From positions 124,001 to 188,000 of the forward strand of contig LWTK01000074.1 of the NCBI GenBank assembly GCA_003326205.1: a stretch of 64,000 nucleotides of DNA. The letters are read 5' to 3'. Both the position numbers and the translations under genes were made by a program. The notes beneath the pieces are model-generated. The model was given only the letters and a program-made list of their open reading frames with translations. It was not told the DNA's origin and did no database searches. Positions 2,918-47,040 of this stretch are shown here, in pieces. Position 1 is the first letter of the stretch, and every line of letters begins with the position of its first letter. The stretch is from Nostoc sp. ATCC 43529 (GTDB taxonomy: Bacteria; Cyanobacteriota; Cyanobacteriia; Cyanobacteriales; Nostocaceae).

Positions 2918-3370
2918 TTGTGTTCTCTTCGTATGCCTGCCTGCCCCATTTGTGCATCTTCCCAAACGGTCAAGAATAGCTGCATCCACAACGGTAAACA
3001 ACGGTTCAAATGCCATGACTGCAGACGACAGTTCGTCGAACAAACGACTAAAAAAGTTATCGACCAAGCCACACGGGAACTGATTGACCGATTGCTCCTG
3101 GAACGCATTTCTCTGGCTGGAATCTCTCGTGCAGCACAGGTTTCTGAACAATGGCTGCAAATCTACATCAATGAGAAATATGCTCTGGTGCCCCGAACCT
3201 TGCAGGTAGCAGCCAAAAAAAGGGGAGACTAACGATCCAATGTGATGCGGCTAGTCCGAAAAACCTTGTCCTTTTCCAAATCCTTGGAGAATCACATTTA
3301 CCATTTAGTATTTCATCCATTATTACAATGCATTATTACTTGTGTAGCGCTGCCAATTTTTCTAAGTTGA
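2918..3370 (+). pseudogene. IS1-family transposase remnant, internally deleted
   Basis: A short reading frame (probable ATG at 2933) begins MPACPICASS and continues with a zinc-binding CxxC...CxxC segment and a helix-turn-helix-like stretch, as in the InsA part of IS1-family transposases. It stops at 3230. About 15 bases later, in another frame, RKTLSFSKSLENH appears, which resembles the extreme C-terminus of the same transposase family. The whole catalytic DDE centre is therefore missing. The remnant sits between the APS kinase and FAAL genes in antisense orientation. I could not define terminal inverted repeats or a target duplication. Confidence 0.72.
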
Positions 3371-3387
3371 CGCTTGTAGTGAAAATT

Positions 3388-3963
3388 TCAACTTACGCAG
3401 CTAGAACTGTACTCTAATTGAGGCTTGGGAGTAATGTAATCTTGCGACTCTAATTCTGTGATTACCTTACGAATGCTTTCCTCAATAGTTTCCTCTGATG
3501 TGTAGCAAACAATGTCAGGATATAAAGGTTCTTCGTAAGGATCATCAATACCTGTAAAAGATTTGATTTTTCCATCTCGTGCCATGGCATAAAGTCCTTT
3601 GACATCTCTAGCTTCACAAACAGGAAGTGGTGCATTTACATAAATCTCAATAAAATTGTGGGTTGTCTGCCGCAGTTCTTCTCTTATTCCCCGATAAGGG
3701 CTAATCGCTGCGACAATAACTACTATTCCATTTCGGCTAAGTAGATTTGCAACAAATCCAATCCGACGGATATTAATTTCTCGGTCTTCTTTACTGAAAG
3801 TTAAACCCTTTGACAAGTTGGTTCTAACTACATCACCATCCAGAACTTCCACTAAGCAATCACGCTTCTTAATTTCTTCCTCTAGTCTTTTGGCAAGCGT
3901 GCTTTTACCTGCACCACTAAGTCCGGTTAACCAAAGTATTAAACCTTTTCTTTTTCTTTCCAT
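3388..3963 (-). CDS. cysC: adenylylsulfate (APS) kinase
   Basis: This is a 191-residue protein with the P-loop GLSGAGKST at residues 14-22, followed by the conserved DGDVVR and the ISPYR and DPYEEP motifs of APS kinases. It phosphorylates adenylyl sulfate to PAPS, the donor for sulfotransferases and an entry to sulfate reduction. The length is normal apart from a short, poorly conserved tail rich in Ser and Cys. It lies directly upstream of the FAAL-ACP-oxoamine synthase gene on the same strand, separated only by the IS1 remnant. The two may once have formed an operon, which would suggest a sulfated or sulfonated product; that link is inference. The enzyme assignment itself is firm. Confidence 0.9.
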   Translation of the reverse strand: MERKRKGLILWLTGLSGAGKSTLAKRLEEEIKKRDCLVEVLDGDVVRTNLSKGLTFSKEDREINIRRIGFVANLLSRNGIVVIVAAISPYRGIREELRQTTHNFIEIYVNAPLPVCEARDVKGLYAMARDGKIKSFTGIDDPYEEPLYPDIVCYTSEETIEESIRKVITELESQDYITPKPQLEYSSSCVS

Positions 3964-5936: not shown

Positions 5937-7208
5937 ATGTACTCAAAATATAACTTTCAATACTTTCAAGGAAGTTGTCTTTCAGATCTGTTTGCTGAAG
6001 ATATCACAGATGCATCTTATGGGTTTATCCTAAATTACCCTGCAACTGCCTGCTGGGCTGCTTATCCCAACCAGAAAAAATATTTTATTCAAGATGGCAG
6101 TAGTGAAGCCAGCAAAACCTCCTTCGACAAAATTTGTCAGAAGGAACCTTGGAAAAATTTGGCTGTGTTAGGCGATCGCATTCCTGGAATTACAATTATT
6201 CCACCATCGAAGTCGCTAATTGATTATTGGAAAGAGCATTTGGATTTTAAGCATTTTAATATTGAAATGATGGATTGCTCCACTTATTTGGATGACCTCA
6301 GCCAAAGCGATGGCTTTAACAAACTCATCACCCTATTTCCCTTCGATCGCCTCAAAACAGAAAAACACGCTATTGAACCAGACACTCATTATCACTTACT
6401 CAGCAAAGCAACTTTAGGCGAATTGGGAGTACAATGTCCAAAATACAAAACTTACAATCTGCACACCTATAGTTTAGAAGACATTGAGTTACCAGAATTC
6501 CCTTACTTGATTAAAACATCCCACGGACTTTCAGGAGAAGGCACATATATTATAAAAAGCCCCAGCGATTTGAATTACTGCTTTGAAGAAATTAGGAAAT
6601 ATCTCAAGCTTAAGTCGCTAGATACGATTATTGTCTCAGAGTTCGTCAAGAATGAGGTGCAGAATTACTGCGTACAGTTTTATGTCAACAAGATGGGAGA
6701 CATAACCCTTATCGGTACTACAAGACAACTCGTCACTTCAGAAGGCAACTATTTAGGGGGATTAATTGACTACCGCAACACTGACATGAGTAAGTTCTTT
6801 GAGATGATTGCCGCCATTGGCCAATATGCTCACAAACAAGGTTATTTTGGCGTCATCGGGTTCGATGTGCTTGAAGATCGAGACGGACAGTTATATGCGA
6901 TCGATGCCAATTTCCGAGTTAATGGATCGACTCCCCTATGTTTGCAGCGTCATACCTTACTAGGACTTGGAAAGGAAGTAGCTAAATATTCCAGTGATTA
7001 CCGCATGGAAGGAACATTAGATTCGATTTTAGTAACCTTAAAACCAGAATTAGAGCGCAAAGACTTGATTATCCTGTCGGCTTTAGAGAAAGCCAAATAC
7101 GGAAAAATCTATACCGACATTTATGCGATCGCTACTGGAGAATCTCTCGAAGAAATGCAGTATATCGAACGGAAATTAGAGGAGAAGGGATTACAATGCT
7201 TTGCTTAA
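5937..7208 (+). CDS. ATP-grasp ligase of unknown substrate
   Basis: This 423-residue protein is preceded by a good Shine-Dalgarno (GGAGGG, six bases before ATG). The central and C-terminal parts show an ATP-grasp fold: a lysine/glycine-rich nucleotide-binding strand and loop (LIKTSHGLSGEGTYII), a glutamate-containing hinge (IIVSEFVKNEVQNYCVQF) and the metal-binding end FGVIGFDVLEDRDG followed by AIDANFRVNGSTP. ATP-grasp enzymes join a carboxylate to an amine or thiol through an acyl phosphate. The N-terminal 130 residues match no domain I know. No tailoring partner is adjacent; the nearest biosynthetic genes are the decayed sugar genes upstream and the FAAL/APS kinase pair. It could make a dipeptide-like or amino-sugar conjugate, but the substrate cannot be read from sequence. 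Confidence 0.72.
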   Translation: MYSKYNFQYFQGSCLSDLFAEDITDASYGFILNYPATACWAAYPNQKKYFIQDGSSEASKTSFDKICQKEPWKNLAVLGDRIPGITIIPPSKSLIDYWKEHLDFKHFNIEMMDCSTYLDDLSQSDGFNKLITLFPFDRLKTEKHAIEPDTHYHLLSKATLGELGVQCPKYKTYNLHTYSLEDIELPEFPYLIKTSHGLSGEGTYIIKSPSDLNYCFEEIRKYLKLKSLDTIIVSEFVKNEVQNYCVQFYVNKMGDITLIGTTRQLVTSEGNYLGGLIDYRNTDMSKFFEMIAAIGQYAHKQGYFGVIGFDVLEDRDGQLYAIDANFRVNGSTPLCLQRHTLLGLGKEVAKYSSDYRMEGTLDSILVTLKPELERKDLIILSALEKAKYGKIYTDIYAIATGESLEEMQYIERKLEEKGLQCFA

Positions 7209-7294
7209 ACAGCACCATTGTTAATATCTGGCGTTAGAAACTTTGATTTCTCCCAGAAACTCTTTTTTTTAGTTAAATGCTAAGGAGATTAACT

Positions 7295-7414
7295 TATAGC
7301 AATCCTATTTCATTTGTGAAATATAGAGTACATTTGTACCTTCTTTTTGACTGTTGCCTGTTGCCCATTCCGTACCTTCATGAGTAATTTTGCAACTCAT
7401 TTAGGATTGCTATA
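7295..7414. repeat. MITE-like inverted-repeat element, 120 bp
   Basis: Perfect 12-bp terminal inverted repeats, tatagcaatcct and aggattgctata, enclose about 96 bp with no coding potential. Size and layout fit a non-autonomous miniature element. It lies in the gap after the ATP-grasp gene. The rest of 7209-7655 shows no gene. Confidence 0.6.
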
Positions 7415-7655
7415 TTCAATCATCAAAGTGGAGTTTAAAAAGCAGAACTATGCTTCTGTTTGCTACATCAATAAGGCGATTAAAATTGAGTGATAAGTTA
7501 AGTATAAGCATTTATTCTAAAATAAAAACATAGATGCAGGTAGATTTAATCCTAAAAATATACACTTCCTTGTATAGATGTAAAGTCTCAAGATTTTATA
7601 AAGAATACAATATATAATTTCACTTCATTTCAATGCATTTAATAATGGGGGAGAC

Positions 7656-7868
7656 ATGAAATTCCAAATAGAGTGTAATACGGCCAAAAATAGCCAAATA
7701 TGTTTAATTTGCCAGCAAAAGTTTATGGCAAAGGAAGCTAGATTAATTATATGCAATGACCAAGGAGAAGGCTATGGAGATCTATGCTACCAATGTATAG
7801 GTAAGGGTGGTAATTGGGTTCAATTACAACTCCAAAAATTCAGCCAGAAAATACTAGCTTTAAGCTGA
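7656..7868 (+). CDS. small zinc-ribbon-like protein
   Basis: A 70-residue product with two CxxC pairs (CLIC at residues 17-20 and CYQC at 44-47), the pattern of a small zinc ribbon. It is preceded by a purine-rich GGGGGAGAC just before the ATG, a plausible ribosome site. The gene stands alone in AT-rich sequence. I recognise no specific family, and a role in nucleic acid or protein binding is only a possibility. Confidence 0.6.
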   Translation: MKFQIECNTAKNSQICLICQQKFMAKEARLIICNDQGEGYGDLCYQCIGKGGNWVQLQLQKFSQKILALS

Positions 7869-7924
7869 TTGATAGGAGATTAAAATTTTCAATAAATCGG
7901 CAATTATCAATAATTAAAGGATTA

Positions 7925-7970
7925 TAGCAAGCGGCTTTAGCCCTATTTTAACGGCTAAAGCTGCTTGCTA
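7925..7970. repeat. palindromic repeat (18-bp arms)
   Basis: Arms tagcaagcggctttagcc and ggctaaagctgcttgcta pair with one G-T mismatch around a 10-base loop. This could act as a bidirectional terminator or be a mobile palindrome. The remaining DNA to 8308 (including a minus-strand frame at 7972-8277) holds only repeat-like sequence with loosely matching ends (accaatttgc / aattggta). I see no gene there. Confidence 0.5.
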
Positions 7971-8308
7971 CCTACGAGAAAATTTTATCAATCTTACGTT
8001 GTATAGTACCAATTTGCAAAAAGAATGCGACAAATACATTGGGTAGGGTAGCACCGCTGTGTGTCCCTACAGATCGTCGATGTGTTACAAAAATTGTTTT
8101 AATTGGTATAACATATAAAACTCTATTGCCCAGTGATACCAGCAACTGCACCTGCCATCGCAAAATAACTTGATGTAGAGTGCAACGGTTTTCTTGGCTA
8201 CACTGCTTGTTGAAAGCCTTGATTTTTCTTGCGGCTTTGTTAGTTCTAACAATTCCGGATTTAAAATTTTGGTTCAAAATGATGTGTAGAAAGCCAAACT
8301 AAATCATA

Positions 8309-11300
8309 ATGCGCTCTTGGTTAAACAGTACACTTCGCATTCGCTTAGTACTTCTCGTCCTTTTAGCTGTTGTTCCAGCACTAGGATTAATTCTTCACAC
8401 CGCTTCCGAACAACGGCGTACCGCTACAGCAGAGGCACGAGAACAGGCACTACGGCTGGCGAGATTGGCTGCTAATAACCAAAAGCAGGTTGTAGAAGGA
8501 ACTCGTCAATTGCTGATGATATTGGCACAGCTGCCAGTTATTCGTCAGCAAAATTCAGCAGAGTGTAATCAATTGCTGGCGGATATCCTCAAACAACATT
8601 CAGCTTATGCTAATTTTGCTGTACTTGATGCTCAAGGAAACGTGATTTGTACTGGGATTCCCTACTCCGGCAGAGCGAATGGAAGAGAGCGGAGTTATTT
8701 TCAACGTACTTTGCAAACCCGGAAATTTACAGTTGGTGAGTATCAAATAGGTCGCTCCACTAAAAAAGCTACCCTGAATTTCGCTTACCCAATTTTAGAC
8801 AAGTCCGGGCAAGTGCAAACTTTGGTTGTCGCTGCACTTGATTTAGCTCAGTTAAATCAGTTGGCGGCACAAGTAAAAATGCCGGCAGGCTCAGTGCTGA
8901 GTTTGGTCGATCGCAAGGGAATACTTTTAGTCCGCTATCCCAAAACGCAAACTTGGGTGGGCAAATCTTTACCGCCTGATGCTTTTATGAGAATGAAAAA
9001 TGCTCAGGTTGAAGGTATCGATGAACCTACCAGCCTTGACGGGGTGCCGCGCATCTTTGCCTTTGTGCCTTTGGGGGATAATCCATTCAACCACGATGGA
9101 TATATCAGAGTTGGTATTCCCAAGTCTAAAGTTTTTGCTGATGCTAATAGTTTATTATTCAAAAACTTAATTAGTTTAGGTGCGGTGACTTTTTTGGCGA
9201 TCGCTGCTGCTTGGGTGGGTGGAGATATATTTTTTATCAAGCAGATACAATCTTTGGTGCAAACAGCCAAAACCTTGGGTAGCGGTCAACTCAACACACG
9301 TACTGGACTTTCTCATCTATGGGGAGAAGTTGGGCAACTAGCGCAAGCGATTGACGAAATGGCCGCAGCACTCCAAGCGCGGGAGAAGGCGATCGCTTCT
9401 TTGAGCCAAAATATGCAAACTTTATTTGAGTTAATCCCCATTGGCATTTTGATCGCCGAAGATATGGAATTTCAGGAGGTAAAATCTAACCCAGCTTTTG
9501 CCGAAATTTTAGGTACCTCTGCTGGAGCCAATGTTTCCTACACTGCCGTTAATATTCCGCGTCCAAGTTACAAAATTTTGCGGGAGGGAAAGGAACTTGC
9601 GCCAGAGGAATATCCATTACGCTATGCAGCCATTCACAACACAGAACTCAAAGGCACAGAAGTTGATATTGTCCGTGGTGATGGTAGTATATTTAATTTG
9701 TTTGGTTATGCTGCCCCTTTAGTTGATGAGCGGGGTAATCCTAGAGGAGCGATCGCTGCATTTTTGAACATAACTGAACGCAAGCAAACAGAAGAACGCA
9801 CCCGTCAGTTGATGAGCCAGGTGCAACATCAAGCTAATATCTTAAATGCAATTCTCTGTGCCTCGGTGGATCGTATCTTTATTTTCGATCGGGATGGTCG
9901 TTACCAGTATGTCAGTGAAAGCGGTGCTGCCCTTTTAGGCTGGACAGTGGAGGAAATGCTAGGCAAAACTTGGCAAGAACTCAATTTTTCCCCAGAAATT
10001 TTTGCTATGATGCGTCCGGTAGATAGCCAACGAGAAAAGGTGATGGCAACGGCGCAACCCCTCAGGGCAGAGACTGAGTATATTGCCGCCGATGGACTGC
10101 ATTTTTACGAATATATTTTGGCTCCCCTATATAATCCTGAGCAAGGGATGGCAGGCATAATTGCTGTATATCGCGATATTAGCGAACGCAAGCGAACCGA
10201 GCAAGCACTCCGACAAAGCGAACAACGCCTCCGACTGGCACAAAAAGCAGGAAAAATAGGAACTTGGGAGTGGAATCTACGTACTGGTGAAGTATCTTGG
10301 TCAGAAGGAATTTGGAATATCTTGGGTTTGGAAATAGGTACAGAAGAACCTGGCGCGAAACCTTGGGTTGATTTTATTCATCCTGACGATTCCCCACGGA
10401 TTATGCAAGGAGTAGAAAATGTCTTAGCTGAAGGTAAAGAATATTATGATGAATTCCGTATTATACGCAAAGATCAGAAAGTTATTTGGTTAGCATCGAA
10501 AGGGCAAATCATCCGAGATGCAGATGGACAAGCCGAGCGGTTTTTGGGAGTTAATATTGACATTAGTGAGCGCAAACAAGCTGAAGAAGAACGCGAACAA
10601 TTACTGCTACGCGAACAAGCTGCACGAGAAGCAGCCGAAACCGCCAACCGTATTAAAGATGAATTTTTGGCGGTGTTGTCTCATGAATTGCGAACGCCCC
10701 TAAATCCCATACTTGGCTGGATAAAATTACTACGGACTCGCCAATTAAATGAAGAGAAAACCGCCATCGCTTTAGAAACAATCGAACGCAATGCTAAATT
10801 ACAAACTCAACTCATCGGTGATTTATTAGATGTCTCCCGGATTCTCCAAGGCAAATTAACGCTGAACATTTCTTGTGTTGATTTAGCTGCGACTATTGCA
10901 GCTGCCAAAGAAACAGTGCGACTGGCAGCAGAAGCTAAATCAATCCAAATTCACACCGAGATTGCACCAAATGTCCGGCCTTTTATGGGTGATGCCAGCC
11001 GCTTACAACAGGTGGTGTGGAATTTGCTTTCTAATGCGGTGAAGTTTACTCCAGCTGGTGGCGAGGTAAAAATCAAATTAGAATCTACCAATACCTACAC
11101 TCAGATTCAAGTTAGCGATACAGGCAAGGGCATCATACCAGAGTTTTTACCTTACGTGTTTGAAACATTCCGTCAAGCTGATAGTGCCACAACCCGCAAC
11201 TTTGGCGGCTTGGGATTAGGATTAGCAATTGTCCGACACATCGTAGAAATGCACGGTGGCACAGTTAGCGCCGACAGCCTTGGAGAAGACCAAGGAGCAA

Positions 11301-12188: not shown

Positions 12189-14921
12189 ATGGCTATTCAT
12201 GATGTCCAATCTCGATATCAGTCTCCCGCACTTAAGGCTTTATTCCGGTCTTGTTCGCAAAAAGCCAGTATTGCAGTGGCCTTAGTTGGCTGTGCTGTGA
12301 TTTTTGGTTGGATACAAGATATCACAGCCCTCAAAAGCATTGTGCCAGGATGGGTAGCGATGAAAGCTAACACAGCTATCTGTTTGATTTTCGGGGGAAC
12401 ATCTTTATGGCTGTGGCACTGGCAACCGAGAATTGCCATCACACGTAGTACTGCTCAAGTATGTGCTTTTTTTGTCTTATTAATTGGTCTGTTGACACTA
12501 ATTCAGTATGCCTTTAACGTAGACCTTGGCATTGATCAAATCTTGTTTCATACCAGAATCGACCCGCTAGGTGATGCGGCTCCTGGCCGAATGGCAGTTC
12601 ATACGGCGTTTATTTTTGTGTTACTGGGATTAAGTCTACTGCTGTTGAATTTGCCTGCTCCTAAATATTTACTAGCCCAATTATGTGCAATAGTGGCATT
12701 TTTCATTGCCGGAATGGGGTTGTTGGGGTACATATATGGCAATGCACTTCTCTTTAGATTTGGCTCCTTAACATCAATTGCAGTGCATACAGCAGTTGCA
12801 TTCTTGTTGTTAGCATATGGCATTTTGTTTGCCTGTCCAAACCGTGGGTTGATGGTCGTAGTCACCAGTAAAAATGCAGGTGGGATTGTGGCGAGGTTTT
12901 TATTACCCCCCGCAATTGCCTTTCCGCCAGTCATCTGCTGGCTAGTTTTATCTGGTTACCGAATGCAAATTTATACTGCTGAATTCGGACTGTGTGCCTT
13001 AAGCGTTTTGAATATCATTGTCTTTGTAATGCTGATTTGGTGGAATGCTCGTTCGCTTAACGCGATCGATCGCCAGCGTCAACGAGCGCAAACAGCGCTT
13101 AAAAAGGCAAATGAAGAGCTAGAACAGAGAGTCTTGTCACGCACAAAGGAATTGTTAACAACTCTGGGACGGTTACAGGAAGAAATTGCCGAGCGCCAAT
13201 CTATAGAACAAGCTCTTTTTCAAGAAAAAGAACTGGCTTTAGTGACATTGCAATCTATTGGAGATGGGGTAATTACAACTGATGCAACTGGTTTGATTAA
13301 ATATCTCAATCCAGTTGCAGAAGTTCTGACTGGCTGGAGTTTAGCCGAGGCATTGAACTTGCCGTTAACAGAAGTTTTTAGAATTATTAATGAAATTAGC
13401 CACCAAACCGTAGAAAACCCAGTAGAAAAAGTTTTGCATTCTGGTGCGATCGTGGGTTTAGCTAACCACAAAGTTTTAATCACCCGCAACGGCACAGAGT
13501 TGTCCATTGAAGACTGTGCTGCACCGATTCGTACTAGGGACGGTCAAATCATTGGTGTAATCCTAGTATTTCGCGATGTTACCCAAAACCGTAATCTGGC
13601 ACGTTTATTATCCTGGCAAGCCAGCCACGATGCTTTGACTGGACTAGTTAACAGACGCGAGTTTGAAAATCGCTTAATACAAGCTGTGACCAGCGCTCAG
13701 ACTGCTAAGGAACAGCACGCATTGTGTTGTTTAGATTTAGACCAGTTCAAAATTGTCAACGACACCTGTGGCCATGTTGCTGGTGATGAACTATTGTGCC
13801 AAGTTGCTAGTTTATTTCAAAATCATGTACGTTCTTATGACACCGTTGCACGTTTAGGCGGAGATGAATTTGGCATTATACTTAATGATTGTTCTCTAGA
13901 GGCAGCAGTATTAATTACTAATCAACTACGTCAAGCAATTCAAAAGTTTCGCTTCGTGTGGAAGCAGGAAAAAATTTTTAATCTGAGCATCAGCATTGGC
14001 TTAGTTGCAATCAACGCAGATATTGAAAATACGAATGCTGCTTTAAGTGCTGCCGACGCAGCTTGCTATGTTGCGAAAAATCAAGGGTCTAATCGCATAC
14101 ATGTTTACCAAGCTAACGATCTTGAGCTAGTAAAGCAACGTGGCGAAATGCAATGGGTGGGAAGAATCACTCAAGCATTGGAAGATAATCGTTTTTGCCT
14201 TTACTACCAATCGATTGTTCCTGTATCGCCAACTTATTCTTTAAAAGAGCATTACGAAGTTCTCCTACGCCTCATTGATGAAAGGGGTGAGGTGGTGTCA
14301 CCAATGGCATTTATTCCAGCGGCTGAACGTTACAATCTCATGCAAACTATCGACCGTTGGGTGATTCACACGTTTTTTGCTAATCTCGCGCGATACGGAA
14401 ATTCTCAATGGCATGATTCTCAATCAGTTAAACACAGTCGTGGCTCTTTATATACAATTAATCTTTCTGGCGCTAGTATCAATGACGATGGATTCATTGA
14501 TTTTGTGTGCGAGCAATTTATTTTACATAAAATACCACCCACAGCAATCTGCTTTGAAATCACTGAAACTGTCGCTATCAAAAATCTAGGTAAAGCTGCT
14601 GGATTTATTCGCTCACTCAAGGAATTTGGCTGCTGTTTTGCCTTGGACGATTTTGGTAGTGGTATGTCTTCCTTTGCTTATCTGAAAAACCTACCAGTGG
14701 ATTATCTCAAAATCGATGGCAGTTTTGTCAAGCATATTGTAGAAGAGCCAGTTAACTTAGCAATGGTAGACGCTATCAATAAAATTGGTCAGGTGATGGG
14801 ACTGCAAACTATTGCTGAGTTTGTAGAAAATAAAGCTGTCTTAGAAGTCATTCAAAACCTGGGAGTAAATTATGCTCAGGGTTATGGAATTGCCAGACCT
14901 CGACCTTTTCGTTTTAAATAA
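12189..14921 (+). CDS. membrane PAS-GGDEF-EAL protein (cyclic di-GMP turnover)
   Basis: A 910-residue protein. The first ~285 residues contain about seven hydrophobic helices forming a membrane sensor. A coiled coil (about 295-345) leads to a PAS domain (about 345-470). The GGDEF domain has the canonical RLGGDEF (GGDEF at 557-561) and the DLDQFKIVND loop, so diguanylate cyclase activity is likely. The EAL domain has EVLLRL at 690 in place of EALLR, plus DDFGSGMSSFAYL and VDYLKIDGSFV, so phosphodiesterase activity is plausible too. It would set local c-di-GMP in response to a membrane or intracellular signal. The net direction cannot be predicted. It follows the hybrid kinase on the same strand but after a 430-base gap, so it is probably transcribed separately. 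Confidence 0.93.
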   Translation: MAIHDVQSRYQSPALKALFRSCSQKASIAVALVGCAVIFGWIQDITALKSIVPGWVAMKANTAICLIFGGTSLWLWHWQPRIAITRSTAQVCAFFVLLIGLLTLIQYAFNVDLGIDQILFHTRIDPLGDAAPGRMAVHTAFIFVLLGLSLLLLNLPAPKYLLAQLCAIVAFFIAGMGLLGYIYGNALLFRFGSLTSIAVHTAVAFLLLAYGILFACPNRGLMVVVTSKNAGGIVARFLLPPAIAFPPVICWLVLSGYRMQIYTAEFGLCALSVLNIIVFVMLIWWNARSLNAIDRQRQRAQTALKKANEELEQRVLSRTKELLTTLGRLQEEIAERQSIEQALFQEKELALVTLQSIGDGVITTDATGLIKYLNPVAEVLTGWSLAEALNLPLTEVFRIINEISHQTVENPVEKVLHSGAIVGLANHKVLITRNGTELSIEDCAAPIRTRDGQIIGVILVFRDVTQNRNLARLLSWQASHDALTGLVNRREFENRLIQAVTSAQTAKEQHALCCLDLDQFKIVNDTCGHVAGDELLCQVASLFQNHVRSYDTVARLGGDEFGIILNDCSLEAAVLITNQLRQAIQKFRFVWKQEKIFNLSISIGLVAINADIENTNAALSAADAACYVAKNQGSNRIHVYQANDLELVKQRGEMQWVGRITQALEDNRFCLYYQSIVPVSPTYSLKEHYEVLLRLIDERGEVVSPMAFIPAAERYNLMQTIDRWVIHTFFANLARYGNSQWHDSQSVKHSRGSLYTINLSGASINDDGFIDFVCEQFILHKIPPTAICFEITETVAIKNLGKAAGFIRSLKEFGCCFALDDFGSGMSSFAYLKNLPVDYLKIDGSFVKHIVEEPVNLAMVDAINKIGQVMGLQTIAEFVENKAVLEVIQNLGVNYAQGYGIARPRPFRFK

Positions 14922-14930
14922 ATAAGTAGA

Positions 14931-14967
14931 AGGCAGGAGGCAGGAGGCAGGAGGCAGGAGGCAGAAG
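14931..14967. repeat. heptamer tandem repeat (aggcagg)n
   Basis: About five copies of a 7-bp unit rich in AGG follow the stop codon of the GGDEF/EAL gene. Just after it, aaccct and agggtt arms (14971-14992) form a weak hairpin. The same unit recurs, reversed, near 46260-46282. Confidence 0.7.
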
Positions 14968-15114
14968 GAAAAACCCTCAATAGTAAAGGGTTTGGCTGAG
15001 TTGTATTTTACATTTAATTATGTCCGCTTACTGATATCGAACAATCAATTTATTAGTGTGCATTCATTAATAGCGACTTTGCAAAAAAACGATTTTACTG
15101 TAAAGTAATCATAA

Positions 15115-15190
15115 GGCGATGGAGCTCGCCATAACCGCCTAATCAAGCTTTCTCTTCTTAAACTTGATAATAAAGCTGATAGCTCCTATT
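15115..15190 (+). ncRNA. fluoride riboswitch (crcB motif)
   Basis: The segment starts GGCGATGGAGCTCGCC (15115-15130), a stem GGCGA/TCGCC whose loop contains GGAGCT. The conserved ATAACCGCC follows, then a second stem (ATCAAG / CTTGAT around 15142-15168) and the 3' block GCTGATAGCTCCTA (15175-15188). The loop GGAGCT (15121-15126) pairs perfectly with AGCTCC (15181-15186), which is the pseudoknot that defines the fluoride aptamer. Downstream a near-perfect inverted repeat (15198-15209 with 15233-15245) could be the expression platform. It precedes an antiporter gene and crcB, the expected regulon for fluoride detoxification, so fluoride binding should turn these genes on. Confidence 0.92.
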
Positions 15191-15280
15191 CTTCTGGCTT
15201 GCTGAGGAAGGATAGGGCTATTTGTCGTAAAGTTCCTTTAGCAAGTCACGCTTGCCCATTTATTATTTGAAAACTGCGTG

Positions 15281-16912
15281 ATGCTAGCAAATTTTATCTT
15301 AATCTTGTTGATCGGCTTTTTCGTGGGACAGATTGCCCGACGGCTAAAAGTCCCTGCACTAGTAGGCATGGTTTTGGTTGGAATTACACTGGGGCCTCAA
15401 GTTGCTGACATCATCAGCCCTGATGTACTGGCCTCGTCTGCTTCTTTGCGAACGATCGCCGTCACGGTGATTTTGATGAAGGCGGGGTTAGGATTAGACC
15501 GGGAAAAACTGGTACAACAAGGAACAGTAGCACTGCGATTAGGGTTTTTGCCTGCGGCTTGCGAAGCCGTAGTTATTGCCATAGCTGCCATTTGGATCTT
15601 AAAGTTTGACTTTGCCACAGGCTTACTACTGGGTTGTATTATTGGAGCCGAGTCACCAGCAGTGATTGTACCGGGGATGCTGCGACTGAAAAGCCTGGGT
15701 TGGGGGGTAACTAAAGGAATTCCCGATGCCATCCTTACTGGCAGTGCCCTATCAGATGTGTTACTACTACTAATTTTTAGTTTGTTGCTAAACTTTTTGA
15801 CACAAGGCGCAAATTCCTCTACGACATTGCCCTTTGGCATCACCTTGAGTGCAGTTCAACTCCTTCCTCTTGAAATTATTTGCCAAATTGTTCTGGGAGT
15901 AGTGTTGGGCTTAGTGACAGCACAGCTGTTGGTATTATTGCTAGTGAAGCAGAATTGGACTCAAAATGCAGTGCAAGATAGCCTAGTTGCAGCGAGTTTA
16001 ACGTTGTTGCTAGTAGTGCTGGCAGAAAAATTCCCTTTCTTCTCTGGCTATCTGGCAGTCATGGCCACAGGATTTTTCTTGATTGAGTTCGATGGCCCTT
16101 TAGCACGACGATTGCGTTCTGGCTTCGATAGCTTGTGGATTGTGGCAGAAATCCTTTTATTTGTGTTGCTAGGAGCAAGTATTCAACTACAAGTTTTAGA
16201 AAAAACTCTGGTTTCAGGATTGGTAATTCTGGCAATGGGAACGTTAATTGGACGCGCCATCGGATGGTATTTGTCTACATTGGGGAGTAACTGGAAATGG
16301 CGAGAGCGACTATTTTTACTACCTGGAAACTCTGCTAAAGCCACCGTTCAAGCTGCAATCGGCGCGATTCCGTTAGGACAGGGAATTGATGGTGGAGAGA
16401 CAATTTTAGCTGTTGCAGCTTTATCTATCCTGGTGACTGCACCTTTGGGAGCTTGGGCAATTCCTACCTTTGCACCAAAATTATTAGACAAGGGTGAAGT
16501 CGATCCTACAAAGGTAGCGATCGCACGTCGTATTATCATACTAGCTGCTGTTGACACCTCTCCTCTAGCTAATCAGGTATTGACTAAAACCGCTGATTTA
16601 GCCCGTCGTAGTGATGCCGAAGTTATTGTATTGCATATCATTCGCACCAACGATTCTCAAAGAGTAGAGCATCTGCGAGAAAAAACTCAAAAACTTTTAG
16701 CAGACATTCATCATAAATTCATTGCCATTCCGGGTTCAATTCCAGAGGAAATTATCCGTGTTGCTCAGGAGTATCGAGTTACTGATATTGTCATTGGTAA
16801 GCGAGGACATCAGCCTTGGGATGAGGTTCTTGTGGGTTCTGTTTCCCAGGCAGTGTTAGAATCCAGCTTAATTCCTGTCATTTTAGTTGACGAAGATCGT
16901 ATTGCTAACTAA
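15281..16912 (+). CDS. CPA-type cation/proton antiporter with C-terminal UspA domain
   Basis: A protein of 543 residues from ATG 15281; an in-frame GTG at 15278 is an alternative start. Residues 1-410 contain about a dozen hydrophobic helices typical of monovalent cation/proton antiporters, including GMVLVGITLGP and acidic helix motifs such as GCIIGAESPAVIVPG. Residues about 420-543 are a universal-stress-protein domain (RIIILAAVDTS at its start, DIVIGKRGHQ near its end). It lies 90 bases downstream of a fluoride riboswitch and 27 bases upstream of crcB, so the two genes very likely form one fluoride-induced transcript. Riboswitch-associated Na+/H+ antiporters and UspA proteins are known from the published fluoride regulon. 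Here the two are fused. Whether it moves Na+, K+ or helps expel acid accompanying HF entry is unknown. Confidence 0.88.
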   Translation: MLANFILILLIGFFVGQIARRLKVPALVGMVLVGITLGPQVADIISPDVLASSASLRTIAVTVILMKAGLGLDREKLVQQGTVALRLGFLPAACEAVVIAIAAIWILKFDFATGLLLGCIIGAESPAVIVPGMLRLKSLGWGVTKGIPDAILTGSALSDVLLLLIFSLLLNFLTQGANSSTTLPFGITLSAVQLLPLEIICQIVLGVVLGLVTAQLLVLLLVKQNWTQNAVQDSLVAASLTLLLVVLAEKFPFFSGYLAVMATGFFLIEFDGPLARRLRSGFDSLWIVAEILLFVLLGASIQLQVLEKTLVSGLVILAMGTLIGRAIGWYLSTLGSNWKWRERLFLLPGNSAKATVQAAIGAIPLGQGIDGGETILAVAALSILVTAPLGAWAIPTFAPKLLDKGEVDPTKVAIARRIIILAAVDTSPLANQVLTKTADLARRSDAEVIVLHIIRTNDSQRVEHLREKTQKLLADIHHKFIAIPGSIPEEIIRVAQEYRVTDIVIGKRGHQPWDEVLVGSVSQAVLESSLIPVILVDEDRIAN

Positions 16913-16939
16913 CTTAATACTCTTGAACTAGCGATCGTC

Positions 16940-17353
16940 ATGCAAAACCCTGCGTTTCGTACTCCTATTGCTATTAGTTTAGGTGCAATTGCTGGCGCGC
17001 TCTGGCGCTATTATCTCAGTTTGTGGTTTAGTCAGCTTTTTGGTACAGGATTTCCCTACAGTACGGCGATCGTTAATCTTAGCGGATGTTTTGTTATGGG
17101 TTTTTTTACAACGCTAGCACTGGGGCGATTAATTGCAATTCATCCTGATATTCAGCTATTAGTAACCACAGGTTTTTTAGGTTCTTACACTACTTTTTCA
17201 ACTTATGAGTTAGATGTAGCTAAGCTACTTCAAGAACGGAGCTTAGAAAATGATTTGGTTTACTGCCTTATTAGTTCTTTTTTTGGGCTAGTTAGCCTGT
17301 TTTTAGGGAATGCGCTAGCGGAATTTTTTATTAAGAGGTTATTTATAAAGTAA
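16940..17353 (+). CDS. crcB: fluoride channel Fluc/CrcB, first copy
   Basis: This 137-residue protein has four hydrophobic helices. The family signature [15 protein letters not shown] is at 78-92, and the conserved asparagine of helix 2 is in IVNLSGCF (Asn46). Fluc proteins form dimeric, dual-topology F- channels in the inner membrane and let fluoride leak out. It is the second gene after the fluoride riboswitch. A second crcB, convergent and about 300 bases away, may be its partner. Confidence 0.94.
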   Translation: MQNPAFRTPIAISLGAIAGALWRYYLSLWFSQLFGTGFPYSTAIVNLSGCFVMGFFTTLALGRLIAIHPDIQLLVTTGFLGSYTTFSTYELDVAKLLQERSLENDLVYCLISSFFGLVSLFLGNALAEFFIKRLFIK

Positions 17354-17366
17354 AAATAAAATTTTT

Positions 17367-17481
17367 GTAGGGTGTGTTAAGCGCATATCTCAATATGATT
17401 TGTCACGAAAACTATGACATGAGCGCCTAACGCACCGTGTTATGTGGTGGTGCGTTAGGCTAAAGCTGTAACACACCCTAC
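17367..17481. repeat. inverted-repeat element between the two crcB genes
   Basis: Ends gtagggtgtgtta and taacacaccctac are perfect 13-bp inverted repeats over 115 bp, with inner arms (aagcgc / gcgttaggc) giving further pairing. It resembles non-autonomous palindromic elements common in Nostoc genomes. By position it may also terminate both convergent crcB transcripts. The rest of 17354-17647 shows no gene. Confidence 0.65.
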
Positions 17482-17647
17482 TGGCGTGGCAAAACTAAAA
17501 TAGTGCATTAGGGAATGGGCTTTGAATTTTATAAATTCGATGTTTTTACTACTAATCTATTGCAACATTTTAGCTGTGTCAGTCTACTACTTAAGATTTA
17601 CTTTATAAATGGTTGAATATTTTTCGTAAAGGAAAAAGGCAATAACT

Positions 17648-18034
17648 TCATAAGAGTGTTCCTAAGAAAATTCCTATTTCTATACTTAGAAATCCTAAAA
17701 TTGGAGTACCTAGCCAGTAAAGTAGTGCAGCTTTATAATCATTTTTAGTTCGTAAGAGGTTCGAGGTATCTAAAGCATAGGTGGAAAAGGTAGTATAAGA
17801 ACCTAAAAATCCTACTGCTACTAAAAAATATAGACTATAAATAATTGTTAACCTGGAAATGACTGTTGCAAACAATCCCATTAAAAAAGCTCCTGTGAGA
17901 TTAATAAATAAAGTTCCATAAGGAAATGCTGTCCCGAAGCAACGCCCAAAAAATAAAGTTATGTAATACCGACTCAGTGCGCCTGAAACAGATCCCAAGC
18001 TAATTAAAATAGGAATATAAATTGCAGAGTCCAT
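17648..18034 (-). CDS. crcB: fluoride channel Fluc/CrcB, second copy
   Basis: This 128-residue protein has four hydrophobic helices, the signature [15 protein letters not shown] at 75-89 and the helix-2 asparagine in FINLTGAF (Asn45). It faces the first crcB tail-to-tail. The two proteins are clearly related yet different enough (for instance GRLIAIHPDIQ against [11 protein letters not shown] between helices) to suggest opposite membrane orientations in a heterodimer, as known for bacteria with two crcB genes; this is inference. I find no second riboswitch upstream of this copy, so it may be expressed constitutively. Confidence 0.92.
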
Positions 18035-18204
18035 AGAAGTTAATTATCCTAAATTTGTTGTAGATTTTATTTTTCTAGAGTAACAAAAGAGACTTAATAA
18101 GTTTAGGCATACAGCGTTTTTCAGGTAAATGAATTACACGGGTAGGGGCTTTACATCTGTCATTGCTGTCAACTTAACGTAAAACCCGCTTTGTGACAAG
18201 GTTT

Positions 18205-18298
18205 TGCCCTCACCCCCAACCCCTCTCCCAAAGGGAGAGGGGAGCCAGAAATTAAATTCCCCTTCTCCTGTAGGAGAAGGGGTTAGGGGATGAGGGCA
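18205..18298. repeat. long palindromic intergenic repeat
   Basis: Arms beginning tgccctcacccccaacccct and ending with the near-complement (ggggttaggggatgagggca) span 94 bp with inner hairpins. The flanks pair further (caaggttttgc / gcaaaacgcc). A related repeat occurs at 59224-59370 and partial copies lie near 24570-24640 and 38580. The gap 18035-18630 holds no gene; a frame at 18134-18370 is an artefact of this repeat. Confidence 0.7.
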
Positions 18299-18630
18299 TG
18301 ACGGATTTGCAAAACGCCTGTCCGATATAGCTTTGGGCTTAAGTTGACACCAATGCACATCTGTGCGCACCTACTATGATCTGTACCTCACCAACTTGTA
18401 ATCTGCTGTATTTTATCGGTTTCACCACGAAACACCAACAGTTCCAGCATCTGGCCAAGGATTGCTAATATCTACTTCTCGGTAGCAGAGTGTGAGCGTT
18501 TTGGCGGTAGCTTCTGCCTTGCCGCAAAGCGTCTACTATAAATTAAAACTACTAAAAAACCCGACCCTTGAGAGAGGGTAGGGTTAGTTACGTTACTAAG
18601 GCTATTTAACTAGAGATTATATCACTCAAA

Positions 18631-21600
18631 TTAAGCCAGCGATCGCCCTGATACAATAATGAACCCGACAGAATCAAGTTTGATTTGCGGTCGGCGAATT
18701 CCCTCTAAAATAGCTGCACTTAAAGCTGTTTCTATTTTGAGTTCTTCAGCTAGTGCTTGATCCCAACTTTGCTGATTCAACAATAGGCGTAATTGTTCTA
18801 CTCTATTGCTTAATTTCTTCTCAGCGACTAAGCTACGTTTTTCGCATAATTCGATAAAATCAGGACGATTAGAAAGTAAGGCTAAAGAAGCGTTACGTAC
18901 TTCATAGCAATAATTTTGCCATTTACTAGGCTCAACAAAATTGTCAATAATTTCTAATCGCTCTTTTGCTAAATTGTAATCTCGTTGTTGATTATTGTTT
19001 CTATCTTTATACGGGCGTTGTAAGATATCCAACAACACTCGATCTTCAACAACAGATATTGGCTCTTGGCGACCATCAACATAGATGGTTTCCATAATTG
19101 GTGGAAATAGCGCATCTACACGTCGTTGCAAAATTTTGTATTGAGAACTGTCGAGTTTGTTCTCAATTAAAACTTGTTTGGCAATTTTTAAATTTGCCTC
19201 GACTATATAATTGTATTGAAAACCGAACCATTCCTTACCTTCTTTTGCGTCCCAAGATGCATCAGTGCGCCACATAGCAAAGGCTTGACCCCGGTCATCC
19301 CAATCTATATAGTTCAACAATGCTTCTACAAATCCTTCTCCAATTCTCAAGAGTTTAACGTCAGAACTTTGGTTGGCGATTCTGCGGTTATAAGTACCAT
19401 ATTTGTCTAAATAACTGTCAGCAAAACGGGTTTTTAACTCATTTATCGGCACCAAAGTACGCGTTATCGGTTGATAACGTTTCATTTCTGGAGAATCTGG
19501 GTTAGTCATTGGTTTGAAACCCAGCGCATCGCAAATCCAGCCTTCAATTGCTCGCTTCATTTCTAAATGACGAGCATCATAATTATCTAATTCTTGAAAA
19601 TATTCGGTTGCAATTTCATCACTAGCATCGATTTCATCTAAGGCATTCAGTTCACTAATCTTGATGATTTCGGCTTCGATTTGTGCTTTGATTGGCTCAA
19701 TCATTTCTACCAGTCCAGCAGCACCCGATTGAAATAAAGCTGCTTCTAATTCTGGCAATTTTTCATCTACGTAAAACTGGAAACTGGCAATTGATTGTTG
19801 AAAAATCCCAAATCCATCTTTCAAAACTTGATACCAAGCGTTGTGGGGACTATCTTCTAGATAAGGGCCAATCAATACACAAGACTGGATGCCAATTTTG
19901 CTGCCAATGCGGTCAAGTCTACCAATTCTTTGTTCTAATTGATTAGGTGACCAAGGCAGATCGAAATGAATTAACCAGTCAGCAAACTGGAGATTACGCC
20001 CTTCTTCTCCAGAGCGATCGCATACTAAAATAAAGCAATTGGGATTATTTTTGAATCTATTTAAGCCAGACTCAACTTTATCCGGTGATTCTCCAAATTG
20101 ATGGCTAACTACTGCTTCTGCACCAAAGGTATCAGATAAATACCGCACAATTTCTGCACAACTTTGGGCAAAACTTGTAAAAATAATGAATTTGGGGAAA
20201 ATATCGCTTGCAATTGGCCTCTTGATTCTCTGTTGTATTCTAGTGAGAAATTCCTTTTGATTTCTGCGAACGTTTGTGGGAATTTTGAAGTATGTACCTA
20301 GCTGATTTAGCAATACTGTTCTTAAATTTTCCTTGCGTTCTCCATCTTCTAAAGGTTGACGAATAATCTTTAATATGGATTGTAAAATCTCTTCTTCGCC
20401 AGAAAATTTAGGAGTTGTAGTTAATAGACGAATATCATCTTCTTTAAATTCCTGACTCAATTTAGCATGGGGTTTACCAGTTAAACGAGTGGTAATTACT
20501 TGTTCTAAAATGCCTAACCAAGTACCCGAAGCAAGGAATAATAACAGGAAAATTCGCTGATATTGCTTTTCTTTGGGAGCAACACTACGCCATTGTTGGA
20601 TGAGTTCGTGAATATCGAGCGATCGCTCATCTAGATCGTATTCTTCTTTGGGTGTAAAATTGCGGTCAAATATCACATCTTCCACCGCCGCACGACGGTT
20701 GCGAAGCATTCGCCGATATAGTCGATAGGTATCGCTGATGTGGCTGCGAATTCCTTGGACAAGTTGATTTTGCTCAGCAGATTTTTCTTGTAAACAAGTT
20801 TCTAAATCATCTGCTAACTTGAGTAAATACTTATCGTCAGGAAACAATTTGCGTAATTCCTGCAAATTGTTTTTCAAGACAACAGGCTTTGCATCTTCTC
20901 TCAAAGCCAGCAGCACTTTACCTATTTGTTGGCGGCTGGCAACTTGAGCGCGAAAACCTTCTAAATCTTCTAGTCTATAGGTTTCGGGTTCGAGCAAATA
21001 TAACATTGCTAAGAAATCTTGCTCGTGATTTACAACAGGATTAGCGGATAATAAAAGTAAGCGATCGCTTTTATGAGCTAGTTCTTTGCAAATCTGAAAA
21101 CGCTGGCGCACTGCTGCATCCTTAGAGGTCGCCATTGCTGCAATATTATGCGCTTCATCTAATATTAAACAGCCGATTTTAGCTCTCAGATTAATTTTAT
21201 GAACATCTTCAACAGCTAGTACCGCTACTCGTTTGGGAAAATGAGAAATATAAAACTTGTTTTCTAACTCAGTTCGCCATTGTTGCAGCAAATATTGGGG
21301 AACTATGACTATCGCACCTTTTTTCGGTTCATCTAACAGGAACTGACGCAGAATTGCACCCGCCTCGATGGTTTTTCCGAGTCCTACTTCGTCTGCTAAA
21401 ATGTAGCGTTGAATAGGATCTTCCAGTACCCGCCGGACAACTTCAACCTGATGGGGATAAAGATTAATATTTGCCGAAATTAGTCCCGTCATCCCGCGAC
21501 TAACTGCGCGTTGCTGAATCAAAGATTTCACGAAAGCCAATCTTTTGTCGTGGAAGTATGGCGTTTCGTGACCCTTCATTGCTAGAGTTTCAATGGGGTC

Positions 21601-21933
21601 TGTGTTCGGTAAATTACAACGGACATAAATTTCTTCTTCGGTAACAATTGCAGTCTTCTTATCTGGTAAATCAACTTGATATTCTTCTGTATCTTCATCC
21701 CAGGCGAAAACTCTGCCAATTATCCATTTATCTTGGTTTTCGGACTTAATATAGCATCGTGCTTGGGGTTCAAGCCTGACTTGAGAAAGCGAAGTTAAAG
21801 GTAAAGTTTTTTGTAGACGTTGCGCCATAGAGCAAAAATACTCAACGATCGCATTAGTCTCAGATATTTCGATAACTTTTCCTATACCCAAATAATTATT
21901 CTGGGACTGTACTAGTAAACCAACTTCAATCAT
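18631..21933 (-). CDS. SNF2-type helicase resembling DpdE
   Basis: An 1100-residue superfamily-2 ATPase. After about 150 N-terminal residues with two small beta-rich segments comes the SNF2 core: Walker A ADEVGLGKTIEAG (from 180), the DEAH box LILDEAHN (259-262) and the LLLLSANP motif. In the second RecA lobe are FIIFTSFAQS, CDRSGEEGRNLQFADWLIHF and the arginine-finger motif QLEQRIGRLDRIG. The C-terminal 400 residues are unlike RapA. Overall length and layout suggest the DpdE family, named from the 7-deazaguanine DNA modification (dpd) cluster. No other dpd gene (DpdA transglycosylase, nuclease subunits) is visible nearby, so this is either an orphan homologue or a different SNF2 family. It may act on DNA-bound or RNA-bound proteins. 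Confidence 0.75.
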   Translation of the reverse strand: MIEVGLLVQSQNNYLGIGKVIEISETNAIVEYFCSMAQRLQKTLPLTSLSQVRLEPQARCYIKSENQDKWIIGRVFAWDEDTEEYQVDLPDKKTAIVTEEEIYVRCNLPNTDPIETLAMKGHETPYFHDKRLAFVKSLIQQRAVSRGMTGLISANINLYPHQVEVVRRVLEDPIQRYILADEVGLGKTIEAGAILRQFLLDEPKKGAIVIVPQYLLQQWRTELENKFYISHFPKRVAVLAVEDVHKINLRAKIGCLILDEAHNIAAMATSKDAAVRQRFQICKELAHKSDRLLLLSANPVVNHEQDFLAMLYLLEPETYRLEDLEGFRAQVASRQQIGKVLLALREDAKPVVLKNNLQELRKLFPDDKYLLKLADDLETCLQEKSAEQNQLVQGIRSHISDTYRLYRRMLRNRRAAVEDVIFDRNFTPKEEYDLDERSLDIHELIQQWRSVAPKEKQYQRIFLLLFLASGTWLGILEQVITTRLTGKPHAKLSQEFKEDDIRLLTTTPKFSGEEEILQSILKIIRQPLEDGERKENLRTVLLNQLGTYFKIPTNVRRNQKEFLTRIQQRIKRPIASDIFPKFIIFTSFAQSCAEIVRYLSDTFGAEAVVSHQFGESPDKVESGLNRFKNNPNCFILVCDRSGEEGRNLQFADWLIHFDLPWSPNQLEQRIGRLDRIGSKIGIQSCVLIGPYLEDSPHNAWYQVLKDGFGIFQQSIASFQFYVDEKLPELEAALFQSGAAGLVEMIEPIKAQIEAEIIKISELNALDEIDASDEIATEYFQELDNYDARHLEMKRAIEGWICDALGFKPMTNPDSPEMKRYQPITRTLVPINELKTRFADSYLDKYGTYNRRIANQSSDVKLLRIGEGFVEALLNYIDWDDRGQAFAMWRTDASWDAKEGKEWFGFQYNYIVEANLKIAKQVLIENKLDSSQYKILQRRVDALFPPIMETIYVDGRQEPISVVEDRVLLDILQRPYKDRNNNQQRDYNLAKERLEIIDNFVEPSKWQNYCYEVRNASLALLSNRPDFIELCEKRSLVAEKKLSNRVEQLRLLLNQQSWDQALAEELKIETALSAAILEGIRRPQIKLDSVGFIIVSGRSLA

Positions 21934-23310: not shown

Positions 23311-23411
23311 TGAGGGATTAGAAGCAGCCACGTTCTGACGCAAGTGCTAATTGAATACCAGCAAATTGAAAATTTGGGTGTAGTCTTTCAGATTAATTCG
23401 TAATTCCTACA

Positions 23412-23495
23412 AATGACAAATGACAAATGACTAATGACAAATGACTAATGACAAATGACAAATGACAAATGACTAATGACTAATGACAAATACCA
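23412..23495. repeat. heptamer tandem repeat (aatgaca/aatgact)n
   Basis: About eleven 7-bp units alternating aatgaca and aatgact fill the gap between the DUF4350 and moxR genes. They create spurious in-frame ATG codons upstream of the real moxR start. This is the short tandemly repeated sequence class of heterocystous cyanobacteria. Confidence 0.85.
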
Positions 23496-28445: not shown

Positions 28446-28610
28446 GGGAGACGCGAGGACGCGGGGACGCGGGGACGCGGGGACACGGAGAAAAACTAAT
28501 GACTAATGACCAATGACCAATGACCAATGACTAATGACCAATGACTAATGACCAATGACCAATGACCAATGACCAATGACTAATGACTAATGACTAATGA
28601 CTAATGACTT
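28446..28610. repeat. two heptamer arrays (ggacgcg)n and (aatgacc/aatgact)n
   Basis: GGACGCG-type units run from about 28450 to 28487. They are followed by about fifteen 7-bp units of aatgacc and aatgact from 28498 to 28608. The second array overlaps the end of the metalloprotease gene on the other strand and provides its last codons and stop. Confidence 0.85.
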
Positions 28611-46891: not shown

Positions 46892-47040
46892 TAGTCATTA
46901 GTCATTAGTCATTAGTCATTAGTCATTAGTCATTGGGCATAGGGCATGGGGCATTGGGGAGGGAAAAGGAATAAATTTAATCTTTCCCTTTTCCCCTTAC
47001 CCCTTTCCCTTTTCCCTTGTCCTCTCCCCATTCCTTAGCA
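46889..47040. repeat. (ttagtca)n heptamers plus G/C-tract element
   Basis: About seven ttagtca units (46889-46935) are followed by a polypurine/polypyrimidine element centred on gggaaaaggaataaattt (46961-47030). The same element recurs at about 52445-52505 and, inverted, at 51455-51520. Confidence 0.8.

Follow-up and report, generated by a model that had tools for sequence, protein, structure and literature searches.

The fluoride locus of Nostoc sp. ATCC 43529 raises the question of what a cation/proton antiporter (CPA) fused to a Usp domain does directly behind a fluoride riboswitch. The locus lies in a stretch of 64,000 nucleotides (nt) of contig LWTK01000074.1 (positions 124,001 to 188,000 of the forward strand), hereafter the window. 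It comprises a riboswitch of the family RF01734, the antiporter-Usp gene, a first crcB gene (crcB-A) that starts 27 nt past the antiporter end, and a second crcB gene (crcB-B), with both crcB genes encoding Fluc subunits. The initial annotation had described the same layout, with an antiporter carrying a UspA domain, then crcB, and a second, convergent crcB, and profile matches support these assignments. It had also called the locus a complete fluoride module. The riboswitch, the antiporter and both crcB genes are indeed present, but the term is overstated, because crcB-B lies on the opposite strand and is not part of the riboswitch transcript. Analysis of other cyanobacterial genomes revealed that the riboswitch is repeatedly linked to the antiporter, and that the antiporter and the known fluoride exporters avoid each other. 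The comparison makes a strong case for the cyanobacterial antiporter-Usp as a candidate fluoride-resistance gene in its own right. We consider it somewhat probable that fluoride induces the protein, and that it acts as a cation/proton antiporter, perhaps gated by a nucleotide, and confers resistance independently of Fluc.

The survey sample consisted of 388 genomes of the class. The antiporter-Usp query (P0001, at E 1e-20) matched 153 of the 388 genomes, RF01734 matched 88 (70 above the cutoff), and the Fluc profile PF02537 matched 243. CLC-F, judged by similarity to the query P0004 at E 1e-60 only, was matched in 20; the motifs GNNLL and GREGT are what we take to be the marks of CLC-F in CLC proteins. 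The genomes hold 101 riboswitch places, of which 75 are above the cutoff, and these 75 precede the antiporter in 62 cases, CLC-F in 10 and Fluc pairs in 2, with one left unresolved. The antiporter-Usp fusion is the main fluoride-riboswitch target in the class. Together with one pair below the cutoff, there are 63 linked riboswitch-antiporter pairs, all on the same strand and 81–189 nt apart; the other 38 riboswitch places are unlinked to the antiporter, and 12 of these, all below the cutoff, were left out of the locus reading. Of 150 antiporter places listed, 144 are at least 900 nt long and 140 were fetched (G371, G003, G362, and G273 were omitted as fragments), and 136 of the fetched loci give proteins of at least 500 residues, which form the aligned set. 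The fused protein is not confined to this genome; rarity of the fusion was rejected, with P0001 matched in more than a hundred genomes and the Usp region filled in all 136 aligned proteins. A riboswitch model built from 29 sequences found the element at 61 of the 140 fetched loci. A scan of genome contigs, the patterns of which favour near relatives, yielded 36 loci, every one under a cyanobacterial title, and the fused gene with RF01734 is also found on cyanobacterial plasmids (Picosynechococcus PCC 7002 pAQ7, WP_012305550.1, and Leptolyngbya BL0902).

Two loci of the survey have unusual arrangements. The unresolved riboswitch (10109–10199, minus strand, in L111 of genome G190) is followed by transposase-like open reading frames (ORFs) over approximately 7100–10200, where the relatives G186 and G193 have CLC-F; the exporter gene has seemingly been displaced by mobile elements. 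In L112 of genome G048 (3026–3868), a riboswitch-led antiporter matches at both ends while residues 118–373 are unmatched, as if the middle had been deleted.

Comparison of antiporter and exporter presence by genome revealed their mutual avoidance. The antiporter occurs together with Fluc or CLC-F in 54 genomes and by itself in 99, while 205 genomes have an exporter only and 30 have neither (odds ratio 0.08, Fisher p 2e-26). Against crcB alone, the corresponding numbers are 49, 104, 194, and 41 (odds ratio 0.10, p 5e-24). The main counts take in six weak or partial antiporter matches and four weak crcB matches, and the odds ratio without them is 0.09. Such a pattern could arise from lineage history only, if Fluc genomes and antiporter genomes simply belonged to different clades, and related genomes do share states: among the 63 matched genomes of family f16, 62 have crcB only and one has the antiporter only. 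We regard this explanation as highly improbable, since the avoidance persists without f16 (odds ratio 0.15) and when genera are used instead of genomes. With one random genome per genus, tested against Fluc alone, the odds ratio is 0.06, a favourable figure because neither-gene genomes inside the listed genera could not be drawn; at the opposite extreme, with all 41 neither-gene genomes counted as separate genera, it is 0.25 (p 1e-5). The best control is provided by two genera of which all available members were searched. In g59 (26 genomes), 7 have the antiporter, 17 have crcB or CLC-F, none has both and 2 have neither (p 5e-5), and in g111 (26 genomes) the antiporter is found in 18, an exporter in 5, both in none and neither in 3 (p 9e-4); one member of g111 (G388) has a crcB pair and no CLC-F match. 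In addition, a quick tree of the antiporter requires 31 or more changes of the exporter state, which also argues against lineage history as the sole cause.

Where antiporter and exporter co-occur, the two genes are often neighbours. At 22 of the 140 antiporter loci, a crcB match is located within 2.6 kb downstream; a neighbouring crcB pair is thus no requirement for the fused antiporter. Nineteen of the 22 have an open crcB frame; of the others, L132 runs into a contig end, and the frame is short or broken in L125 and L253. Eleven of the 22 belong to the single genus g64 and lack the riboswitch. CLC-F follows the antiporter at 5 of the 140 loci, one of them a remnant. Decay of the neighbouring exporter is evident in several Nostoc genomes. 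In Nostoc CCCryo 231-06, crcB-A stops at codon 24 while the riboswitch is kept, and other PF02537 matches are present. Nostoc foliaceum keeps the riboswitch and the antiporter, with crcB-A cut to 43 residues (codon 43) and no PF02537 or CLC-F match elsewhere in the genome. N. spongiaeforme has a crcB remnant and CLC-F, with no PF02537 match in the genome and no riboswitch match at the corresponding place. In the genome of the window, no CLC-F match to P0004 was found at E 1e-60. In two genus mates (G334 and G375), a fluoride riboswitch is followed immediately by CLC-F, and both the antiporter and crcB are lacking. Four other sampled genomes (G164, G238, G011 and G031), presumably close to Picosynechococcus PCC 7002 and Synechococcus elongatus PCC 7942, gave no Fluc or CLC-F match.

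The adjoining exporters bear on an alternative in which the antiporter is merely accessory, serving pH or cation balance, while fluoride is removed by Fluc, CLC-F or an unrecognised exporter. Consistent with such a role, a crcB or CLC-F match adjoins the antiporter at 27 of the 140 loci, remnants included, and 5 of the 8 antiporter genomes of the window's family have an exporter. According to a review, Na+/H+ antiporters are the riboswitch-linked class second in frequency to exporters, and pH homeostasis is offered as the reason (PMC11139923). However, 87 of the 140 antiporter loci are in genomes with neither a PF02537 nor a CLC-F match, and an accessory gene is expected to occur with exporters above chance, not below it as in the strong avoidance inside the two genera. 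We consider a purely accessory role unlikely.

To place the protein among known transporters, we compared its sequence and predicted structure with solved relatives. The window ORF matches PF00999 with 109 bits and PF00582 with 69.2 bits; it may start at GTG 15278 (ORF 15278–16912) or at ATG 15281, the latter being common to relatives. By sequence, NHA2/SLC9B2 (E 1e-33) and NhaP are its best relatives of solved structure, and Foldseek with the predicted model returned NHA2, MjNhaP1, PaNhaP, and then KefC. The model has a mean predicted local distance difference test (pLDDT) score of 75.1 and a predicted template modelling (pTM) score of 0.65, with pLDDT below 50 at residues 125–151. The PF00999 match and the predicted CPA fold assign the protein to the CPA cation/proton antiporters. 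All 136 aligned proteins share E124, S125, R325, and K353 without exception, and the window protein, like 130 of the set, has the acidic residue D159 in transmembrane helix 5 (TM5). Conservation of E124 and D159 at these levels fits cation/proton exchange. Alignment revealed that E124-S125 in TM4 faces Val-Ser of NHA2 and Thr-Asp of MjNhaP1, with E124 one residue before the MjNhaP1 Asp, and that S158-D159 in TM5 faces Asp-Asp of NHA2 and Asn-Asp of MjNhaP1. At the ion site, the unfused homologues of other phyla match the NHA2 pattern. D159 is replaced in six proteins (5 Asn and 1 Ser), which occur among the riboswitch-controlled proteins only (6 of 61 vs 0 of 75 others, Fisher p 0.007) and need at least four changes on the quick antiporter tree. 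Five of these six genomes have neither crcB nor CLC-F, and the sixth (G080) has CLC-F. Either E124 suffices for transport in these proteins or their substrate is unusual.

The loss of D159 keeps alive the possibility that antiporter-Usp itself moves fluoride, as a third, unrecognised kind of exporter that would use the fold of cation/proton antiporters and would have taken the place of Fluc and CLC-F on many occasions among cyanobacteria. Glu124 would then be the proton carrier, and the Ser-Asp/Asn pair would form the anion site. Such a role would agree with the antiporter standing in for two unrelated fluoride exporters, with the rearrangement of the ion site relative to homologues (Glu for Val in TM4 and Ser-Asp for Asp-Asp in TM5), and with the restriction of the repeated Asn or Ser substitutions to riboswitch-controlled proteins. 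In contrast, five riboswitch-led homologues from other phyla retain the ordinary Asp-Asp site, and D159 itself is retained in all but the six proteins of the set. To our knowledge, no anion carrier close to antiporter-Usp exists on the CPA fold, which also counts against fluoride transport by the protein, and we judge it distinctly unlikely.

Cation/proton exchange is the preferred function, and it suggests how the gene might confer resistance. Fluoride would enter as hydrogen fluoride (HF) and be trapped as F- plus a cation in the alkaline cytosol. The antiporter would pass the cation out and a proton in, so that F- could leave again as HF. Deliberate acidification of the cytosol as a defence is used by Kef systems. 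On this reading the antiporter would be an independent defence against fluoride, being the sole known candidate in many cyanobacteria and paired elsewhere with Fluc or CLC-F. The Usp domain probably gates the antiporter by ATP or another adenine nucleotide. The window protein has an intact G-2x-G-9x-G-S/T motif, the ATP-binding signature of Usp domains, as do 106 of the 136 aligned proteins.

Homologues outside cyanobacteria also carry the riboswitch. RF01734 was found upstream in all five non-cyanobacterial records opened from the plasmid search (Bacillota and Fusobacteriota), which are homologous over the membrane domain, with scores of 55.9 bits in Peptoclostridium, 36.7 in Ilyobacter, 38.7 in Acetoanaerobium, and 56.6 in each of two Cetobacterium somerae records. 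These five proteins have 396–404 residues and lack Usp. In Peptoclostridium (L266, 5320–7143), the fluoride riboswitch is followed by a CBS-domain gene and then by the unfused antiporter. Nucleotide gating is favoured because the CBS domain is another nucleotide-binding kind of domain. In total, 797 plasmid records match P0001; among the 25 matches listed, 7 cover at least 80%, and 13 enterobacterial ones span only about residues 249–406. In the one enterobacterial region viewed, an antiporter ORF of 549 nt is annotated beside resistance genes, and no fluoride gene is annotated.

Several observations weigh against an antiporter that confers resistance by itself. The six replacements of D159 affect a residue expected to be necessary for cation exchange. 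In the window's own family, the avoidance is weak: 5 genomes have both antiporter and exporter, 3 the antiporter only, 15 an exporter only and one has none (p 0.09). The 30 genomes of the sample that carry none of antiporter, Fluc, and CLC-F point the same way, and antiporter-only genomes may hold an unrecognised exporter. The presence tests are genome counts without species-tree correction, and a link between riboswitch state and exporter state on the antiporter tree was rejected, as independent pairs gave no signal. Finally, no riboswitch match was obtained at 79 of the 140 antiporter loci, of which 4 have less than 250 nt upstream.

Analysis of the leader RNA suggested how fluoride could control the antiporter. 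The aptamer match (E 1.2e-8, gathering cutoff 34 bits) is the sole Rfam match above gathering in the window, and the sole RF01734 match in its own genome at E 0.001. The pseudoknot strands GGAGCT and AGCTCC named in the initial annotation are present and align with the cyanobacterial copies. TGATAG, which had been taken for a conserved block, is a local variant found in 1 of 29 aligned sequences, with TGATGG in 21; the change preserves the pseudoknot, as U-A replaces U-G. The anti-aptamer hairpin is predicted to capture the 3' pseudoknot strand, and in all 57 leaders compared the energy of its duplex is better than that of shuffles (z below -1.64). Helix X would form when the loop of this hairpin pairs alternatively with a downstream segment, and in 32 of 56 leaders its score is equalled by no more than 2 of 40 shuffles. 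Across genera, the same positions of helix X are filled by several pair types, in helices that were picked as best and are so biased toward pairing. Helix Y would mask either the start codon or a sequence resembling a Shine-Dalgarno, and in 30 of 56 leaders the 5' arm of helix Y shares bases with helix X. Among 11 Nostocales leaders each pair of helix Y is conserved in 9 to 11, and the helix is weak against shuffles, with 12 of 57 leaders passing. The entire leader folds slightly better than shuffles (z -1.87). Helix Y leads us to prefer start-codon control over transcription termination, the less probable mechanism, for which a terminator-like stem is listed at 15241–15255 with the tail CCATTTATTA, in a region with 8 such sites vs 2.7 expected. 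In the proposed relay, fluoride would hold the pseudoknot, helix X would form, helix Y would open and translation would start. Fluoride binding to the leader would in this way free the expression of antiporter-Usp and the downstream crcB-A.

The two crcB genes both pass the TIGR00494 cutoff and match PF02537, and with 46% identity between them the second is distinct from the first, as had been proposed. With helix borders set by hand, the Lys/Arg bias is +3 for crcB-A and -1 for crcB-B. By the same hand-set borders, first crcB genes behind the antiporter have a positive bias, with one at 0, and second genes have 0 or a negative bias. Homologous Fluc pairs are reported to show opposite Lys/Arg bias, and La1 and La2 are both needed (PMC3755343). 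Given this opposite bias, crcB-A and crcB-B are probably the halves of one antiparallel heterodimeric Fluc channel, and either crcB alone should therefore fail to complement an Escherichia coli crcB mutant. The pair resembles La1/La2 in its two different subunits and opposite bias, and differs in that crcB-B is convergent rather than tandem (PMC3755343). A riboswitch of its own for crcB-B was rejected, since even a threshold of E 5 gave no RF01734 match in its vicinity. The crcB-B subunit would be produced from a separate transcript and pair with crcB-A. Nostoc UCD121 and Fischerella thermalis likewise have a second crcB in convergent orientation, and its expression would therefore be uncoupled from the riboswitch there too.

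Comparison with known systems placed NHA2/SLC9B2 and NhaP closest among solved proteins, by sequence and by fold; the window protein differs from NHA2 and MjNhaP1 in its Glu-Ser in TM4, its Ser-Asp in TM5 and the added Usp domain. The K+/proton antiporter KefC, a Foldseek match, likewise combines a CPA domain with a cytosolic domain. Kef bears an RCK/KTN domain and responds to electrophiles, whereas the window protein has Usp and a fluoride riboswitch instead. Fluoride-riboswitch Na+/H+ antiporters are already in print as the next commonest class after exporters (PMC11139923), with a CPA antiporter directly behind RF01734. Relative to these, the cyanobacterial form adds the Usp domain, differs in the arrangement of its ion site and tends to stand in place of exporters, not beside them. 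In the Enterobacter cloacae FRM operon, a fluoride riboswitch controls uspA and crcB; there uspA is a separate gene, and none of the six genes named in the abstract is called an antiporter (PMC5533749). The literature thus agrees with the earlier statement that antiporters and UspA proteins are separately known among fluoride-riboswitch genes (PMC11139923 for the antiporters). Usp domains on Na+/H+ antiporters are mentioned in general terms elsewhere, together with binding of cyclic di-AMP (c-di-AMP) by the Usp domain of KdpD (PMC8214093). No discussion of the antiporter-Usp fusion was found in the available portions of PMC2864571 and PMC7266159. Among the open-licence papers listed, no title on the cyanobacterial antiporter-Usp and fluoride was found, which is no proof of absence.

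The features of the locus are collected in the table. The interspersed element between the crcB genes has the inverted ends GTAGGGTGTGTTA...TAACACACCCTAC and 26 own-genome matches, of which 7, itself included, span at least 109 of the 115 bases with 77–100% identity. Directly 5' of the riboswitch, the window encodes a PAS-GGDEF-EAL protein of 910 residues (12189–14921, plus strand). On the other side, the fluoride locus adjoins an SNF2-type helicase of 1100 residues (18631–21933, minus strand) with a full-length PADLOC match to DpdE (E 4e-238). A long imperfect hairpin, CCCTCACCCCCAACCCCTCTCCCAAAGGGAGAGGGG...GGGTTAGGGGATGAGGGC, is located at 18199–18303, and its Rfam matches are only sub-threshold chance microRNAs. 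Heptamer tandem arrays (AGGCAGG, ACAAATG, ACTAATG, and TTAGTCA) are found at 14931–14968, 23409–23491, 28495–28609, 46884–46934, and other places in the window.

Table. Features of the fluoride locus, in window coordinates.
Feature	Coordinates	Strand	Basis or remark
Fluoride riboswitch aptamer, RF01734	15106..15195	+	cmscan 43.2 bits; aligned with 28 cyanobacterial copies
Predicted anti-aptamer hairpin, 3' pseudoknot strand and following bases pairing with GAAGGATAGGGCTAT	15178..15222	+	Minimum free energy fold and 11-sequence consensus fold
Predicted helix X, 15195-15207 with 15236-15248, CTTGCT/AGCAAG core	15195..15248	+	Shuffle control
Predicted helix Y, 15245-15251 (GTCACGC) with 15276-15282 (GCGTGAT)	15245..15282	+	Spans the start codon; shares bases with helix X
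Antiporter-Usp fusion gene	15281..16912	+	PF00999 and PF00582; NHA2 is the best solved relative
Antiporter membrane domain, PF00999	15314..16450	+	hmmscan, residues 13-391
Usp domain, PF00582, G-2x-G-9x-G-S motif	16538..16888	+	hmmscan, residues 421-537
crcB-A, Fluc subunit, Lys/Arg bias +3	16940..17353	+	PF02537 95.5 bits; TIGR00494 104.8 bits
crcB-B, Fluc subunit, Lys/Arg bias -1, convergent	17648..18034	-	PF02537 80.6 bits; TIGR00494 90.2 bits
Interspersed element between crcB-A and crcB-B	17367..17481		Own-genome matches; outside the fluoride function

If antiporter-Usp does confer fluoride resistance independently, then 99 of the 388 cyanobacterial genomes sampled, roughly one in four, would depend for resistance on a gene annotated merely as a cation:proton antiporter. 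Such a role would account for the existence of fluoride-riboswitch antiporters. It would also mean that cation/proton exchange alone can replace a fluoride exporter, or else it would reveal a new exporter fold.

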